Shown: positions 4,001 to 15,331 of the stretch, piece by piece | Layout: the number at the start of each line of letters is the position of its first letter | Position numbering within the stretch: position 1 is the first letter of the stretch | Translations under genes and position numbers: made by a program | IMG/VR virus record: IMGVR_UViG_3300043410_000639 | Coordinates: 1 to 20,803 of that record | DNA length: 20,803 nucleotides | Source of the DNA: a virus | Strand: one strand, 5' to 3' | The notes under the pieces: model-generated | Databases searched by the model: none | The model's input: the letters and a program-made list of their open reading frames with translations, nothing else | What the model was told of the DNA's origin: nothing

Positions 4001-4175
4001 CTTCAATCCTTTCATAATATGATACAAGTGGTTTCCAAAATTCTAAAAATGTTTGCTTATCTGCATAAAACTCTTTTATAGTTGTATGCTCTCCGATTTC
4101 AGATTCAATACGAACCTGAATAGTTCCTGCTGGTACAGGAATTTCTTTAATATCAATTTTGTGTGGATAGTTCAT
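3981..4175 (-). CDS. Small hypothetical protein
   Basis: A 64-aa acidic protein. Residues ~5-25 suggest beta strands (KIDIKEIPVPAGTIQVRIES), followed by a helix (ADKQTFLEFWKPLVSYYERI). No motif is recognised. The ATG overlaps the stop of the radical SAM gene as ATGA, so translation is probably coupled, and its end overlaps the WYL_2-like gene. The overlaps on both sides and the coherent composition support a real gene. Confidence 0.7.
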   Translation of the reverse strand: MNYPHKIDIKEIPVPAGTIQVRIESEIGEHTTIKEFYADKQTFLEFWKPLVSYYERIEDEIGNK

Positions 4176-5668
4176 ATTGATAGTTTCCTTTCTTTATACG
4201 CATCAATTTTAGAATCTCTTACAACAGAAGCCATATATGTTGTTGCACTATCAGCAAGTCTTGATGTCTTTCCTTCAAACCTTTGTTTAAGAGTTTTTGA
4301 ACCATGCATAATATTAGCGAGTTCAAAATTATCAAACTTATTATCCATTAATAAATCAAATTCATTATTATTAAATAATTCGTTAACAGTGTTTTTTGCT
4401 TGAACATAATTCATATATTCATTTTTCCATCGCAAACTATCTTTATGTACATCATTTAAATTTTTTCTGCTATCATCAAAATTTGTATTTAAAATTTCTT
4501 CTTCAGTCATTTTAGAATACCCATATTTGGTATAATCTGAAAATTTAGATTGAATATCAATTTCATTTTCAGGTATAGACAATGCCCATGCTAATAATGA
4601 TTGAGACTTCCAATTATCTAATAACCACTGTCGAGTTTGCTTTAAAGAATTTACATCCTCATGAGGTAAACCAACAATTATACTAATTGTTCCACGATAT
4701 AGACCAGTTGATTCAAAATACTTTCTAATATCAATCAACCCCTGTTTCACTCTGTCTGGGTGCATACCCTTACCAACAGACTTTGCAGTTCTATGATTGA
4801 AACTTTCGATACCATAATAATGACCACGTAAATTCATTCTGGCCAAATCTTCAATTTCACCTTTTCTAGAAATCATTAAGTCAGCTCGAACGAAACCACT
4901 AAAGAAAGTTTGAAAGTTTAATTTCTCGACAACATCTGCAAACTTTTTAATTTTTTCTGTTCTATCGTTAAATGTTTCATCAGTGACTATGTAATTTTGA
5001 ACACCCCATCTATCATAGTTCTTTTTCATTTCCAAGTCAAAATTATCAGCATCACGAGTCATATCACCCTTCAACCCAATTAATGGAAAATTGCAGAAGT
5101 CGCAAGAGAACATACATCCTCTTGAAAATTCTACACTCAACCACTCCCAAGGTTGAATAAAATCTCTTTCTTCATATTCAACACTTAAATCTCTCATTGG
5201 GTATGCAGGATAATCAGCAATCGCATTAATAATTTTTCTTCCAGTATTCAACCAAAACTTTGGTCGTTCACCATTACTGAATAGATAATTCAATAAAGTA
5301 AGTGTTGCGTTTTCACCATATCCCTGAATGTAATAATCAATTTGATTAGATTTAAAAAATGGATTAACTGCACTCCCACTTATATACTTCAATGAAGGAT
5401 ATTGTTTCCTACTCCATTTTATAAAATCTTCAAGTGTATCTGACCAAATGCTAAACAGATGACTGAACCCGAAAAACTTTGTATTTGATGTTACTCGACT
5501 TTTACAAAGTTCCTGTAATTCTTTTAAAGACCAACTCATTGCATAGTCAATAACCTCAACATCCCAACCTTCTTTGCGTAGAAAATGTGCAATCCTATAA
5601 ACACCAGCAGTTCTACCTGATCTATGTTTTTCTGGATCTAATACATTAAATAGCAAACAATGATTCAT
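4172..5668 (-). CDS. Radical SAM enzyme with B12-binding-like N-terminal domain
   Basis: A 498-aa protein. Residues ~1-160 look like the Rossmann-type B12-binding domain of class B radical SAM proteins: a Rossmann-like start, FFGFSHLF near 65-72, SGSAVNP at 97-103 and IDYYIQGYGEN at 110-120. The cobalamin-ligating DxHxxG motif is not seen. The radical SAM core carries the [4Fe-4S] cluster motif CMFSCDFC with Cys 185, 189 and 192 (CX3CX2C), then DETFNDR (230-236), YYGIES (284-289) and VGLPHED (332-338). The C-terminal ~120 residues are charged and helical, with no extra Cys cluster. It should bind S-adenosylmethionine and generate a 5'-deoxyadenosyl radical; the substrate is unknown. The start overlaps the upstream stop as ATGA. 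The gene is visibly more AT-rich than its neighbours, which suggests separate acquisition. Confidence 0.88.
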   Translation of the reverse strand: MNHCLLFNVLDPEKHRSGRTAGVYRIAHFLRKEGWDVEVIDYAMSWSLKELQELCKSRVTSNTKFFGFSHLFSIWSDTLEDFIKWSRKQYPSLKYISGSAVNPFFKSNQIDYYIQGYGENATLTLLNYLFSNGERPKFWLNTGRKIINAIADYPAYPMRDLSVEYEERDFIQPWEWLSVEFSRGCMFSCDFCNFPLIGLKGDMTRDADNFDLEMKKNYDRWGVQNYIVTDETFNDRTEKIKKFADVVEKLNFQTFFSGFVRADLMISRKGEIEDLARMNLRGHYYGIESFNHRTAKSVGKGMHPDRVKQGLIDIRKYFESTGLYRGTISIIVGLPHEDVNSLKQTRQWLLDNWKSQSLLAWALSIPENEIDIQSKFSDYTKYGYSKMTEEEILNTNFDDSRKNLNDVHKDSLRWKNEYMNYVQAKNTVNELFNNNEFDLLMDNKFDNFELANIMHGSKTLKQRFEGKTSRLADSATTYMASVVRDSKIDAYKERKLSI

Positions 5669-8258: not shown

Positions 8259-8304
8259 GTTGTATGTCTAAATGGGCATATAATTACAACAAATTGGAGT
8301 GAGG

Positions 8305-8928
8305 ATGGAATTAACATTACAACAACTAAAACAGTTGCTTCCAAAGAACCCTTACGTTGAACACTGGCACCGTGCTTTAGCCCAGTTGCTACCAGATTAT
8401 GAAATAAATACACCCCAACGAATCGCTGCATTTATCGCTCAATGTGCGCACGAGTCGGGTGGTTTTATGGTTCTAAAAGAAAACCTTAATTATAAGGCTG
8501 CAACTCTAAGAAAGATTTTCCCCAAATACTTCCCAACCGATGCTATGGCTGCAGAGTATGCTGCAAAGCCAAATAAACAAGAAGCAATCGCAAATCTCGT
8601 TTATGCCAATCGTATGGGTAACGGTGGACCAGAAACTGGAGACGGCTATCGTTTCTGCGGACGTGGTCTAATTCAACTTACTGGTAAGCAGAACTATTCT
8701 TGGTTCGCTGCTTCTATCGATATCTCAGTAGAAGAAGCATCAGAATACCTACAAACTTTTGAAGGTGCTGCTCAATCAGCTTGCTGGTTTTGGGAATCAA
8801 ATAACTTAAATCGATTCGCTGATGTTGGCGATATTAAAGGTTTAACTAAAGCAATCAACGGTGGCTTTATTGGTCTAGAAGATCGTATCGCCCACTATGA
8901 GCATGCGTTGCATGTGATGGGAGCTTAA
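8305..8928 (+). CDS. Endolysin, GH19 chitinase-like muramidase
   Basis: A 207-aa single-domain enzyme of the glycoside hydrolase 19 type that degrades host peptidoglycan at the end of infection. Catalytic glutamates are visible: E50 in AQCAHESGGF and E59 in VLKENLNY. The conserved RGLIQLTG follows at residues 120-127. It has no signal peptide, so it needs a holin for release. I choose ATG 8305, because GGAG sits 5 nt upstream; the earlier GTG at 8299 overlaps that site. It starts the only plus-strand gene group in the window and lies ~41 nt downstream of the predicted late start. The next gene begins immediately after its TAA. Confidence 0.93.
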   Translation: MELTLQQLKQLLPKNPYVEHWHRALAQLLPDYEINTPQRIAAFIAQCAHESGGFMVLKENLNYKAATLRKIFPKYFPTDAMAAEYAAKPNKQEAIANLVYANRMGNGGPETGDGYRFCGRGLIQLTGKQNYSWFAASIDISVEEASEYLQTFEGAAQSACWFWESNNLNRFADVGDIKGLTKAINGGFIGLEDRIAHYEHALHVMGA

Positions 8929-9213
8929 ATGAATGACCGCAAGTTAGTAAGATATCTATTATTGCTACTTCTATTCCCATTAGGTTTAGCAATGTGTAGT
9001 CAAGAGCAGTTTAGATATCCATGTCAAAACCCAGCAAACTGGGATAAAGATATTTGTAAGAAACCATTGTGTGATGTGACTAGAACTTGTCCAGAACATG
9101 TTTTTAAAGGGGGTCGTGACCCCAGATTAGGAATGCCAGATGAACAAAATACTATCAAATCTACGCCAGCACCTGCTGGATCTGTTAACCAAGGAGTCAG
9201 CTGTGGAAAATAA
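8929..9213 (+). CDS. Cys-rich exported or membrane-anchored small protein (lysis cassette)
   Basis: A 94-aa protein with an N-terminal hydrophobic segment (residues ~8-21) reaching LGLAMC. This could be a weak lipobox (Met at -1 is unusual) or a signal anchor. The exported part has Cys at 22, 31, 42, 47, 53 and 91 and the pattern RYPCQNPANWDKDICKKP, suggesting disulfides in the periplasm. Its position between endolysin and holin-like genes makes an outer-membrane spanin-like role thinkable, but no spanin signature is seen. The ATG follows the endolysin TAA, with GGAG 6 nt upstream. Confidence 0.75.
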   Translation: MNDRKLVRYLLLLLLFPLGLAMCSQEQFRYPCQNPANWDKDICKKPLCDVTRTCPEHVFKGGRDPRLGMPDEQNTIKSTPAPAGSVNQGVSCGK

Positions 9214-9679
9214 AGATACCTTTATATACACTGAAGATCAGTTGATGGCTCGACTGAAATTCTTTATTGGTATTTGTTTGACACTTACATTATTCGGTAT
9301 CGTATTCGTTGTACTTTACTCTTTGATTTTCGTTACCCAACCATTGAACGCTATCAGCCCTATCGACCAGAAGTTCTTTGAGTTGATTGTGCCTATTGCT
9401 ACATTTTTAACTGGTACTCTATCAGGTATCATGTTAGCTGGTCAAAAACCAGAAGACCAAAAAGCAATGTTAGAAGCACAGAAACAAGCTCAAGCAAATG
9501 CCGACGCTGCAGCTAAAATGACAATTGAACAGGCAAAAGTGTTAAACCCAACACCACCACCTGCTCCAGTTGTAGTAGCAACACCTGTTTATGCTCCACC
9601 TGCTAACTTTCAACCGCAAGTAATGATGAGCTCGACTGGTAAGCCAATGCCTGCACAACCTGATCATCCAGAGATTTAA
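9203..9679 (+). CDS. Two-span membrane protein, holin candidate
   Basis: A 158-aa protein with transmembrane segments at ~20-46 and ~58-80, an Ala/Gln-rich amphipathic helix (~84-115) and a Pro-rich tail. I choose GTG 9203 as the start: AAGGAG lies 7 nt upstream, and the protein then begins MENKDTF. A longer frame opens at ATG 9140, but that would overlap the previous gene by 74 bp without a good ribosome site. It may be a holin, forming pores that let the endolysin reach the wall. The long soluble tail is unusual for a holin, so a virion or anti-holin role is also possible. Confidence 0.75.
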   Translation: MENKDTFIYTEDQLMARLKFFIGICLTLTLFGIVFVVLYSLIFVTQPLNAISPIDQKFFELIVPIATFLTGTLSGIMLAGQKPEDQKAMLEAQKQAQANADAAAKMTIEQAKVLNPTPPPAPVVVATPVYAPPANFQPQVMMSSTGKPMPAQPDHPEI

Positions 9680-9680
9680 A

Positions 9681-9728
9681 ATGCAAAACGAAGATTGCCC
9701 AATCTGTGGTGGAAAACATAAAAAATGA
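9681..9728 (+). CDS. 15-aa CxxC mini-ORF (possible microprotein or coupling leader)
   Basis: ATG 9681 begins a 15-codon frame (MQNEDCPICGGKHKK) in the 45-bp gap between two membrane genes. Its TGA overlaps the next ATG (9725) as ATGA, the same junction style used by real genes here. CPICGGKH could bind zinc, with two Cys and a His. Only a weak GAGA ribosome site is present. It could be translated to couple its neighbour or be a chance ORF. Confidence 0.4.
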   Translation: MQNEDCPICGGKHKK

Positions 9729-9955
9729 GTTTTTGGAAAAGCATGTTAAAAGATGGCCATGATGGTTCGTGGAGTAGTAAACGTATTATTACTCTACTTG
9801 CTTTCATTCTGGTGGCTATTTCTTTTACAGCTGATCAATTCTCAATATATAAAGCAAACGAGAAATTGTTTGATTCAATAATCTATCTGGTTATAGCAGG
9901 TCTAGGATTTACTGCTTCAGAAAAATTCGCAAAAAAGGAGATCCCTCATGAGTAA
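9725..9955 (+). CDS. Small two-span membrane protein, holin-like
   Basis: A 76-aa protein: polar N-terminus (DGHDGSWSSKR), transmembrane segments at ~20-37 and ~50-66, and a charged tail (EKFAKKEIPHE). Size, topology and position after the endolysin fit a class II-type holin, and the GLGFTASEKF end is similar to holin-like proteins I recall from T4-like phages. The 158-aa protein upstream is the alternative holin. The start is coupled to the 15-codon mini-ORF by ATGA, and the end overlaps the next gene by 8 bp. Confidence 0.78.
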   Translation: MSFWKSMLKDGHDGSWSSKRIITLLAFILVAISFTADQFSIYKANEKLFDSIIYLVIAGLGFTASEKFAKKEIPHE

Positions 9956-10148
9956 ACTAGCAAAAGTATTAATTGCTGCAAATCTAGTTATTTGGTCTGT
10001 TGTTGGCGCTGAGATAGCACATGCTGAAGCCAAGAAAGAAAAAGCATGCGTTGAAGTTAAAGACGCTAAGACTGGTAAAGTAACTGAACAGTGTAAAGAA
10101 ATCAAGAAACATAAGAAACTTGAAGTAGAAAAAGATACAAAGAAATAA
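9948..10148 (+). CDS. Secreted Lys-rich small protein
   Basis: A 66-aa protein with a Sec signal peptide (LAKVLIAANLVIWSVVGAE) ending in AHA and a mature part of ~40 residues rich in Lys and Glu, with two Cys (CVEV and QCKE). It would be a small, highly charged periplasmic peptide, whose disulfide might form after export. AAGGAG lies 7 nt before ATG 9948. It is the last gene before the terminator. Function unknown, but its place suggests a lysis role. Confidence 0.75.
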   Translation: MSKLAKVLIAANLVIWSVVGAEIAHAEAKKEKACVEVKDAKTGKVTEQCKEIKKHKKLEVEKDTKK

Positions 10149-13071: not shown

Positions 13072-13734
13072 TTACTGACATCCGTATCTAGCCTTGATTA
13101 CAGGATCAGAGCCAGAATAAGCAGGACAGAGGGGACTTGCCACCACAGATGATTGGGGCTTGATTGGAAAGGTATCTGCATTTGACTTGCTAGAAGTCGC
13201 CTGCGCCTCCTTATCATTTTCTTTCTTGCCTGTTTCTCTAATTGGTTCTTCTTTTGCTTTTTCAGGTGTTTGTTTTACAATGTCTTTTTCATTAACACGA
13301 CCACGTTGAATCCAAACTTCTTTTGCTTGTTCGCCAATCTTACCTTGTACTGGACATGGTGTGCCTGCGTCAATCATTGCCTGAAAAACTCTATCATCTT
13401 GACATAGAGTAGCAACTGCTGCTACTTTCATGCCCATATCATAAAGATTTTTAGATAGTTTAATTCTTTCACAATTCATATCTCTAACTGTACCACCCAT
13501 AGAGATACCAAGAATTTGTGTTTGTACTGCACCAGATGCTGCTGTGGCGCAAACGTCATTATTAATTACTGTTACAGCTGGAGCCACCGCTGTTGGTGGG
13601 GGTGAAATAACCCTAGTTGTTGAATCAGATTTTGTTGTGCTGTTGGATGTCGAATCAGTTACGATTGGGTCTACTGCCCAAACGTTTAATGTAAACATAG
13701 CAAAAAGCACGCTTGTGGCGACCTTTTTGTACAT
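13072..13734 (-). CDS. Secreted protein, partner of the Cys-repeat protein
   Basis: A 220-aa protein with a Sec signal peptide (residues ~1-20, ending VWA) and no lipobox. A Ser/Thr-rich stretch is followed by PPPTAVAPAVTVINNDVC and a compact domain (residues ~60-135) with QTQILGISMGGTVRDMNCERIKL, CQDDRVFQAMIDAGTPCP. I recall this domain from T4-like and related phages without a known function. A long Lys/Glu-rich linker leads to a C-terminus with PLCPAYSGS, similar to half of the Cys repeat in the next protein. GAGG precedes the ATG. It has a late-type promoter 45 bp upstream, and the next gene starts immediately after its TAA. Confidence 0.85.
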   Translation of the reverse strand: MYKKVATSVLFAMFTLNVWAVDPIVTDSTSNSTTKSDSTTRVISPPPTAVAPAVTVINNDVCATAASGAVQTQILGISMGGTVRDMNCERIKLSKNLYDMGMKVAAVATLCQDDRVFQAMIDAGTPCPVQGKIGEQAKEVWIQRGRVNEKDIVKQTPEKAKEEPIRETGKKENDKEAQATSSKSNADTFPIKPQSSVVASPLCPAYSGSDPVIKARYGCQ

Positions 13735-13754
13735 TTTTTACCTCTGGATAACAA

Positions 13755-13770
13755 TGGACTTAATTGTCCA
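13755..13770 (-). other. Leader hairpin of the late transcript
   Basis: On the minus strand TGGAC-6 nt loop-GTCCA forms a 5-bp stem. It sits at the very 5' end of the transcript predicted to start near 13773. It could stabilise the late mRNA or be incidental. Confidence 0.35.
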
Positions 13771-13778
13771 TTTAATAC

Positions 13779-13786
13779 TATTTAGG
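13779..13786 (-). promoter_or_regulatory. Late-type promoter box (CCTAAATA)
   Basis: The minus-strand box CCTAAATAGT lies 45 bp before the secreted 220-aa gene. T4 spacing would put the start near 13773. The TAA stop codon of the 375-aa gene (13784-13782) is the first half of the TAAATAG core, just as at the nuclease gene. Confidence 0.6.
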
Positions 13787-14909
13787 GTTTTAGTTTATTT
13801 AAATCTTCAACTTCTTGCTCAATCTCACCAACTTTATTTAAAAATGATTGAACTTTACGTTTCTTCTCTTGTTCTAATAATTCAGACTCAAATCTACCAA
13901 GTTCTTTTTCTGGTTGTGGTTGATTAATACGTTTATATAACTCGGGTTCCCAATCTTTCTTTTCTACAGAAACTTGTTCTTCAAATAATAGATCGTCTTG
14001 AGTATCAATAACTTTAGTGGGTTCTTCAATAATTTCTTTCTTTTCTTGCTCTGTTGGTTTTTCACCAACATCAGCAATCCAAGCATCAGGTTTAATTTCT
14101 TCTGGCTCTGGAAAGTCTTCAGCTTTTTCTTTTTTAAAGAAATCAGTCCAAGATGTTTTGTTTTGATTGCGTAAGTTCCAGTTAGCTGCTACTAAAAGTA
14201 AAACAGCTAATGGATCAAATACCGCAACAATCATTAATATTACTATGCGGACTGCTTTTTCGAGGAAGTCTGCGTCTTGCGCTTCTTGTCCGTAGATGAG
14301 TTGCGCGATGTATTTGATTGGTCCGACTTCGGCTTCGACTTTTCGGACTTCGCTGGCGATTGGCGCACGTTCTTCGTTGAGTTTTGCGATTTTACTTTGG
14401 GCATTACCGATTTCGTTAAGGATTCTGGCTCGATCTTTTTGCTGTCCTCTACGGATGGCAATGGCTCGTTCTGTTCCTTTGGCGTCGTCTGTTCTTGCGA
14501 TGGTTTGATCAACTTGAGAATCGAGTTGATTAAGTTCTTTACGACTTGCATTTAAGTTCTCCTTTTCGGTCTTTATCTTTTCATCTATCAAAGCCAACTT
14601 AGCTGATACATCTCCTGTTGGAATTGCTTGATCTAAATGTGCCTTTGATAAGAAGCCAAAGATACCCATTGATGTTAGCATCATTAAGATAACTAACGCT
14701 GTTGTGAAATAGATCTTCATCAAACGTGGTACATCTTTCCACGAGCGATAAAGCCATGATGCTACTACAAGTTTTGATGCTTCAAGTAATGAACCCATAA
14801 TAAAGATGGGTGTGGCTGCAGCAGCAAAAATTGCTACCAAGCCCATGATTGAATAGTAAGCAGCAACTGCAGATAAACCTAGTGCTGTTACAAATAGAAG
14901 ATATGTCAT
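13782..14909 (-). CDS. Four-span inner-membrane protein with long coiled-coil loop
   Basis: A 375-aa protein. Transmembrane helices are at ~3-30, ~33-52, ~65-88 and ~220-243 (IVILMIVAVFDPLAVLLLV). Residues ~105-205 form a long charged coiled coil between spans 3 and 4, and residues ~250-375 are an acidic, Pro/Glu-rich soluble tail. The start is ATG 14909 (MTYLLFV): it overlaps the nuclease stop as ATGA and GAGGAAAG precedes it. The frame runs 12 codons further upstream, which I reject. The coiled-coil segment has an abrupt shift to C- and A-ending codons (see the nested ORF). Similar four-span proteins occur in T4-like phages, function unknown. Confidence 0.85.
   Translation of the reverse strand: MTYLLFVTALGLSAVAAYYSIMGLVAIFAAAATPIFIMGSLLEASKLVVASWLYRSWKDVPRLMKIYFTTALVILMMLTSMGIFGFLSKAHLDQAIPTGDVSAKLALIDEKIKTEKENLNASRKELNQLDSQVDQTIARTDDAKGTERAIAIRRGQQKDRARILNEIGNAQSKIAKLNEERAPIASEVRKVEAEVGPIKYIAQLIYGQEAQDADFLEKAVRIVILMIVAVFDPLAVLLLVAANWNLRNQNKTSWTDFFKKEKAEDFPEPEEIKPDAWIADVGEKPTEQEKKEIIEEPTKVIDTQDDLLFEEQVSVEKKDWEPELYKRINQPQPEKELGRFESELLEQEKKRKVQSFLNKVGEIEQEVEDLNKLKP
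14243..14551 (-). CDS. Candidate nested overlapping gene (102 aa, +1 frame)
   Basis: Inside the 375-aa membrane gene, ATG 14551 in the +1 frame has AAGGAG at ideal spacing (7 nt) and opens a 102-codon frame ending TAG at 14243. The product is polar and low-complexity, rich in Lys, Ser, Gln, Thr and Pro (for example SKKIEPESLTKSV), with a short hydrophobic N-terminal helix (VVKNLINSILKLI). The host frame's codon usage changes near this ATG and returns to normal directly after this TAG. The alternative is that a foreign coiled-coil segment with different base composition simply happens to lack stops. Treat as a hypothesis. Confidence 0.35.
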   Translation of the reverse strand: MQVVKNLINSILKLIKPSQEQTTPKEQNEPLPSVEDSKKIEPESLTKSVMPKVKSQNSTKNVRQSPAKSEKSKPKSDQSNTSRNSSTDKKRKTQTSSKKQSA

Positions 14910-15331
14910 AACTTTCCTCTGATGTGTGATCCGTGTATTCTGCACATAATATTGTTATTATAGTAGTCGTCGCTTTCTAATACTTTGCGAGCGAATTGTT
15001 CACGTGCTTCAATATAACTACATTCTGCTTTACTTTTGCAGAAAAATAAAATCTCTCGGGTGAATTGATCCTTCCCGAAAGTCACTATATCTTTATTTAG
15101 TTCATTAGAAGAACCGTAGTATTCCTGCCAATCGGAGTCAATCTTATCACGGATCTTTTTCTTCTTCTTATTTCCGTTTTTCAGAGTTACGGTTTTATAT
15201 TTGGTGCGAGAGAACTTGGCTAATTTCTTTCCCACATACTTCTTACCATTCGTCAGGTTTGTAATTAGATATACAAACCCAACGCAGTCTTCAGGTAATT
15301 CAGTTAATTGTTCTTTATTATAAATCCACAT
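14906..15331 (-). CDS. GIY-YIG-like endonuclease
   Basis: A 141-aa protein. GFVYLITNLTNGKKYVGKK (residues ~18-36) corresponds to the two GIY and YIG half-motifs (here FVY and YVG). A very basic loop follows (residues ~37-63, including NGNKKKKKIRDK). Then DWQEYYGSSNEL, REILFFCKSKAECSYIEAREQF and DYYNNN fit the rest of the fold, with a candidate catalytic Glu in the SYIEAREQF helix. It resembles free-standing Seg/homing-type nucleases and a family of small T4-like phage nucleases. It may cut DNA of competing phages or of the host; the target is unknown. The late box 15358-15365 and a hairpin lie just upstream. No strong ribosome site is near the ATG. Confidence 0.75.
   Translation of the reverse strand: MWIYNKEQLTELPEDCVGFVYLITNLTNGKKYVGKKLAKFSRTKYKTVTLKNGNKKKKKIRDKIDSDWQEYYGSSNELNKDIVTFGKDQFTREILFFCKSKAECSYIEAREQFARKVLESDDYYNNNIMCRIHGSHIRGKL

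Follow-up and report, generated by a model that had tools for sequence, protein, structure and literature searches.

An out-of-frame gene very probably nested within a phage membrane-protein gene

Introduction

Does an open reading frame that lies out of frame and wholly inside a phage membrane-protein gene encode a protein of its own, or is it a passenger of the codons that the surrounding gene uses? Most out-of-frame nested genes demonstrated so far come from small viruses with tightly packed genomes or are isolated examples, and disordered, basic products are typical of overprinted genes. One general account of overprinted viral genes describes a younger frame born within an older gene, together with constraint on host-synonymous change (PMC8227390), and the embedded sgl lysis genes of ssRNA phages, as treated in a second source, offer a parallel case of overprinting (PMC7693330).

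The locus that raises this question lies on an IMG/VR virus fragment carrying T4-like genes for RNase H, NrdA/NrdB, ThyX, and SegE; the whole 20,803-nucleotide stretch analysed is referred to here as the window. The initial annotation had described a 102-codon ORF in the +1 frame of a membrane-protein gene, with AAGGAG 7 nt upstream of its ATG, and had offered either a dual-coded gene or an imported coiled-coil segment as the explanation. The ORF and its start signals are exactly where they had been placed. Here, we present comparative evidence that the ORF is very probably a real protein gene, located out of frame inside a phage membrane-protein gene. This confidence refers to the existence of the nested gene and is separate from the function proposed for its product.

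Results

The host gene, the nested ORF, and their immediate surroundings are composed of the following features:

13782..14909, minus strand: host gene, encoding a polytopic membrane protein of 375 aa whose C-terminal tail is acidic and whose third hydrophobic stretch is separated from the fourth by a coiled-coil hairpin
14292..14615, minus strand: residues 99-206 of the host protein, predicted to form a coiled-coil hairpin; most of the nested gene falls within this span
14243..14551, minus strand: putative nested gene, a 102-codon +1-frame ORF kept in every window-clade relative
14549..14551, minus strand: nested start ATG, at host codons 120-121 (AAT/GAT G..)
14559..14564, minus strand: Shine-Dalgarno (SD) sequence AAGGAG, with a 7-nt spacer to the nested ATG
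14906..15331, minus strand: SegE-like GIY-YIG endonuclease gene (PF19835, E 1e-34), whose adjacency is kept across the clade

The nested ORF is wholly contained in the host gene (nucleotide offset 358, +1, of 14909..13782(-)) and ends with a TAG at host codons 222-223. The stop of segE overlaps the start of the host gene (ATGA), and the host and nested frames are therefore probably carried on the segE mRNA; no T4-type late promoter (TATAAATA) was found in the window. The gene order across 13072-15331 and 8299-10148 is nrdB, a cupin-like gene, segE, the host gene with its nested frame, and genes for proteins of 220, 751, and 178 aa, and the run containing segE and the host gene is convergent with genes for a GH19-type endolysin and for proteins of 94, 179, 76, and 66 aa. 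Several window-clade loci preserve the order from nrdB to the 178-aa gene together with the convergent endolysin group. The proteins of 220 and 751 aa appear to be secreted, with Cys-rich repeats in the larger one, and neither matched a family of known function. Two overlapping small genes after the endolysin gene (8929-9213 and 9140-9679) encode possible spanin or holin parts: a protein of 94 aa whose hydrophobic N-terminus ends in LAMC, and a membrane protein of 179 aa. At 4172-5668, this T4-like phage fragment also encodes a radical SAM protein with a B12-binding-like domain.

The structural model of the host protein contains helices at residues 99-139, 143-155, and 157-206, with pLDDT mostly 81-94. 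Searches of Pfam, NCBIfam, and PHROGs assigned it no function and returned only weak Tetraspanin and SMC-like coiled-coil matches; the Pfam Tetraspanin assignment was rejected at 20.1 bits, against a gathering cut-off of 32.1. A Foldseek comparison of the model with the PDB gave nothing below E 0.03, and its convincing matches in BFVD were all uncharacterised phage proteins.

A scan of viral contigs yielded 80 relatives at 59-95% identity and a second query 56 further loci; one of these (L170) is the same contig as another (L080), and the window clade thus comprises about 135 contigs. All of them keep the nested ATG at host codon 120 with an AGGA core a few bases upstream, and all have an open +1 frame of 72-112 codons, the shortest being that of L043. 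An early +1 stop or a missing ATG or AGGA, which the initial annotation had named as counting against a nested gene, occurs in no member of the clade. At the base of the window clade, the 64% relative L267 has a closed +1 frame. Among 54 representatives, the window-clade sequences below 95% nucleotide identity, host codon 120 is always AAT or GAT, the nested ATG is present in 54/54, and Lys116, the source of the AAGG, is encoded by AAG in 54/54, as opposed to 29% AAG in the flanks. Only the +1 frame, out of the five other than the host's, is open in every representative; no stop interrupts the host-register antisense frame in 36/54, and the remaining frames are free of stops in 0-3/54. The antisense ORFs of the same stretch were rejected as candidates, as their conservation is absent among the 54 representatives.

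The initial annotation had proposed that synonymous sites be compared among homologues, and within the window clade synonymous change is clearly reduced across the overlap. Over pairs with the same amino acid, synonymous codon identity reaches 0.83 across the common overlap, compared with 0.59 and 0.63 in the two flanks, and kappa, chance-corrected for codon usage, is 0.60 versus 0.26 and 0.21. The sliding profile of synonymous identity rises at the nested start and falls again near codon 195-200, where the nested frame of most genes stops. Its maximum, 0.87, covers codons 121-135, the first 15 nested codons; because this peak sits in ordinary codon composition, the constraint amounts to more than a codon regime. 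In the overlap, diversity at third positions falls to 0.23, from 0.43-0.50, the first and second positions being like those of the upstream part. Relative to other host-synonymous changes, those that would introduce a stop into the nested frame have a rate of 0.06, compared with 1.05 and 1.12 in the flanks, although these counts partly restate the openness of the frame and come from non-independent sequence pairs. OLGenie-like NN/NS ratios were too noisy, with overlapping bootstrap intervals.

The main competing account of these observations is that a codon-usage regime or an imported coiled-coil segment, of foreign origin or tied to mRNA decoding, leaves the +1 frame open as a passenger. Regional codon usage does leave the frame of a single gene open fairly often: after permutation of codons within the region it was open in a median 0.83 of permutations. 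The ORF of any one gene is therefore unremarkable, and the evidence lies in its conservation across relatives. When synonymous codons were redrawn from each gene's flanks, the +1 open run averaged 14.7 codons, and the observed run was attained in a median 0.5% of redraws per gene. We also simulated evolution along the tree under GY+F3X4, taking codon frequencies and rates from a fit to the overlap and starting from the window sequence. Even with this regional codon usage the simulations failed to hold the frame open, giving a mean of 5.1/54 and a maximum of 30/54 open frames, and a maximum of 34-42/54 when branches were shortened until host identity was at least as high as the real one, against 54/54 observed. 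The nested ATG was retained on average in 28-41/54 simulated sequences (maximum 53/54), compared with 54/54 in the real ones. A BLOSUM comparison of real with simulated nested residues was discarded as uninformative, since the simulation under-conserves the host protein too.

The codon usage of the host frame bears further on this account.

14243..14503, minus strand: codon-switch zone, with C/A-ending third positions in the host frame (T at third positions down to 4-20%), ending at the nested stop

The initial annotation had reported an abrupt codon-usage switch matching the nested ORF. The switch is real and ends at the nested stop, but it covers host codons 136-222 and is thus narrower than the ORF: host codons 121-135, already within the nested frame, remain T-rich (8/15 T-ending). 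The nested frame across codons 121-135 encodes a hydrophobic amphipathic helix, while the remainder of the nested product, a disordered tail, is encoded in the codon-switch zone. Each host third position doubles as a nested second position, and a polar, stop-free nested product excludes T there, which accounts for the odd host codons; removal of T at these positions would force ATC, CTC, GTC, GCC, and GAC.

The position of the nested stop divides the 54 representatives into 39 in which it lies at host codon 195-201 and 15, the window included, in which it lies at 220-225. Over codons 200-222, third positions of the short-nested group are 43% T and 17% C, as in its own flanks, and those of the long-nested group are 4% T and 52% C, with a synonymous identity of 0.73 versus 0.44-0.52 in its own flanks. 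Regime and constraint thus end at each clade's own nested stop, indicating that it is the nested gene, rather than the coiled coil, that the codon regime tracks. By itself, this co-shift can be read either way, because relaxed codons bring stops back; in combination with the start signals, the simulations, and the helix segment, it supports a nested gene. A codon regime also leaves it unexplained that codons 121-135, ordinary in usage, have the highest synonymous identity, and that a second clade, described below, stays open without a codon switch. An imported segment, the other explanation of the initial annotation, is contradicted by the coiled coil itself, which is alignable throughout the family, including relatives that lack the regime, and by a regime end that moves with the nested stop. 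We therefore regard a passenger frame as highly improbable and the dual-coded reading as supported.

The conserved frame might instead be entered by +1 frameshifting from the host frame, producing a fusion of the membrane domain with a basic tail. In 35/54 representatives no +1 stop occurs within the 7-27 codons ahead of the ATG, but such a stop lies directly before the ATG in the other 19/54, including the window, which makes frameshifting unlikely. The conserved signals, moreover, are an SD sequence and an ATG, and in many of the genes with another start the new ATG has its own SD; on this evidence frameshifting is hardly credible. An RNA-level element constraining third positions, either a structure or a C-rich, G-poor Rho-type site, is extremely improbable, for although the third positions are C-rich and G-poor and the region is constrained, folding is no better than in shuffles (z -0.21 for the overlap, 0.46 for the start region), and such an element predicts neither the invariant ATG and SD, nor the universal absence of +1 stops, nor an end linked to the stop.

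A second clade, at approximately 50-60% identity, was drawn by identity to three members and spans more than one side of a tree branch. In this set, 78/91 representatives have a +1 frame that stays open over 60 codons or more; matched simulations reached at most 18/91, and at most 26/91 with slower rates. The 91 representatives have neither a C-ending bias nor raised synonymous identity, so that what is supported there is openness, not a fixed protein sequence. They nevertheless shun precisely those codons that would produce nested stops: their Ile, Leu, and Val codons are A-ending in 58/151 cases before a pyrimidine and in 1/362 before a purine; in closed relatives, the latter figure is 33/102. 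The same ATG is present in 45, with an SD sequence in 36 of these 45, and in many of the genes without the codon-120 ATG a different ATG, preceded by an SD of its own, lies at -12 or -2. In one subclade (L373-L394) the nested start lies 12 codons upstream, with AAGGA or AAGGT before the ATG, and in another an ATG 2 codons upstream is mostly accompanied by GGAG. The frame is closed in 13/91 second-clade representatives, as it is in L267, indicating that the nested gene is dispensable in some phages.

The host protein belongs to a four-TM coiled-coil family whose members include Mosig QOI69118.1, Salicola phage SCTP-2 gp195, XacN1 ORF242, and immuto_86; it is 28-47% identical to these homologues and shares with them a common TM/coiled-coil/TM plan and a VGPI..DPLA motif. 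In Mosig-type relatives (47-50% identity) and most GenBank relatives the +1 frame is interrupted by stops, and Mosig (a Pelagibacter phage), SCTP-2, XacN1, and RAS14 differ in this respect from the window clade. Flavobacterium phage immuto (L089, 2926-4071) has a 72-codon +1 ORF in nearly the same place, lacking an SD, which is possibly an independent or remnant nested frame. Outside both clades, L271, L316, and L471 carry +1 ORFs (69-101 codons) close to this place, that of L471 with an SD, and these are possibly further births. No cultured phage was found to carry the window-clade version of the nested gene; a scan of genome contigs returned no relatives and hence no bacterial host. A weakly resolved tree built from 102 host proteins requires the frame to have opened or closed at least 17 times, which implies either many gains and losses or one old origin followed by many losses.

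The nested product was characterized by prediction.

14504..14548, minus strand: residues 2-16 of the nested product, predicted (AlphaFold2, hydrophobic moment) to form an amphipathic helix at its N-terminus

The product encoded in the window has a pI of 10.1, a net charge of +12, and a GRAVY of -1.4, and is rich in Lys, Ser, Pro, and Gln. The initial annotation had expected a polar, Lys/Ser/Pro-rich protein; the tail is Lys/Ser/Pro-rich, and the first 15 codons give the hydrophobic amphipathic helix. AlphaFold2, supplied with 41 relatives, predicted one confident helix at residues 2-15 (pLDDT ~85) followed by disorder. The helix is strongly amphipathic, with a hydrophobic moment of 0.69 versus 0.52 (sd 0.12) in a recoded null, and the host frame accounts for part of this amphipathicity. 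Residues M1, V4, S65, S69, S72, K73, and K75 are invariant. No match to the product was found in Pfam, PHROGs, or NCBIfam, or by tblastn against 50,697 phages, and it contains no Cys in the window, no conserved Cys in relatives, and no signal-like hydrophobic N-terminus. These models predict a small cationic protein with a short N-terminal amphipathic helix and a disordered tail. The composition differs between the clades, being Ser/Pro/Lys-rich in one and Arg/Trp-rich in the other.

Discussion

The comparisons described here support an internally initiated, selected reading frame within the host gene. We infer that it is translated from the segE-host message by SD-driven internal initiation: ribosomes on this polycistronic mRNA would start at the AAGGAG-7 nt-ATG signal and then read the +1 frame for approximately 75-110 codons. 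Standard annotation very probably misses this gene, and no nested gene is annotated in the Mosig, SCTP-2, XacN1, and immuto homologues.

With respect to function, the nearest known arrangement is that of lambda Rz/Rz1, in which, as in the window, a small +1 gene with its own start lies wholly inside the gene for a coiled-coil membrane protein (PMC6139136). Rz1, one subunit of this embedded two-component spanin, carries a lipobox Cys and a proline-rich region and is exported as an outer-membrane lipoprotein (PMC6139136); richness in disorder-promoting residues is common to Rz1 and the nested product. The initial annotation had drawn this comparison, which holds for the nested arrangement and fails for the product. 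An Rz1-like o-spanin, or a dedicated lysis protein encoded in an i-spanin-like gene, would be in keeping with this nesting, with a cationic amphipathic helix, and with the endolysin/holin-like genes that the window clade carries in convergent orientation 2-5 kb away. The window product, however, lacks a signal peptide, lipobox, and Cys, as well as a membrane-spanning hydrophobic segment and an Rz1-like proline-rich block, and is, unlike Rz1, strongly cationic. The nested gene occupies 0.32-0.59 of the host gene, compared with approximately 0.4-1.0 of Rz for Rz1. As to placement, the lysis genes of the window clade are nearby but convergent and separated from the host gene by three genes, other contexts are found in other relatives, and in most of these the nested gene is not adjacent to lysis genes. 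The absence of a lipobox or Cys, together with the different position and, less clearly, the context, indicates that the nested product is not an Rz1 o-spanin, and a lysis role, which competes with our proposal for function only, is very unlikely. Pseudomonas phage Fc02 has out-of-frame overlapping small genes, one encoding a superinfection-exclusion protein (PMC9936078); their arrangement and host gene differ from those of the window, and we cite them as a functional analogue only and claim no sequence relation. Our own proposal is tentative and may well prove wrong: the nested product might be a membrane-surface protein of the inner membrane that works with the coiled-coil membrane protein or another acidic partner. 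The helix would lie on the inner membrane, and the basic tail would contact the co-produced coiled-coil protein or that other partner.

The history of the frame can be read in two ways. It may be an old nested family, ancestral to both clades, that was repeatedly lost and restarted at a new ATG and SD while its protein sequence turned over, a history to which we assign somewhat less than an even chance. The alternative to a single old origin is parallel births at the same spot, which, if true, would be as notable as one old family.

In contrast to typical overprinting, the nested gene occurs in large dsDNA phages, with genomes of up to hundreds of kb, in which coding space is not short, and, unlike the cases described for overprinting in general, it is patchy across a large family and its start site has relocated. 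Hundreds of relatives of the host gene are present in environmental phage contigs, so that the nested gene combines abundance in such contigs with genomes that have room to spare. Clades with long, short, moved, and lost nested frames serve as internal controls, making the origin, persistence, and death of an overlapping gene testable by sequence alone. The nested and host genes together point to an unstudied phage membrane-protein system.
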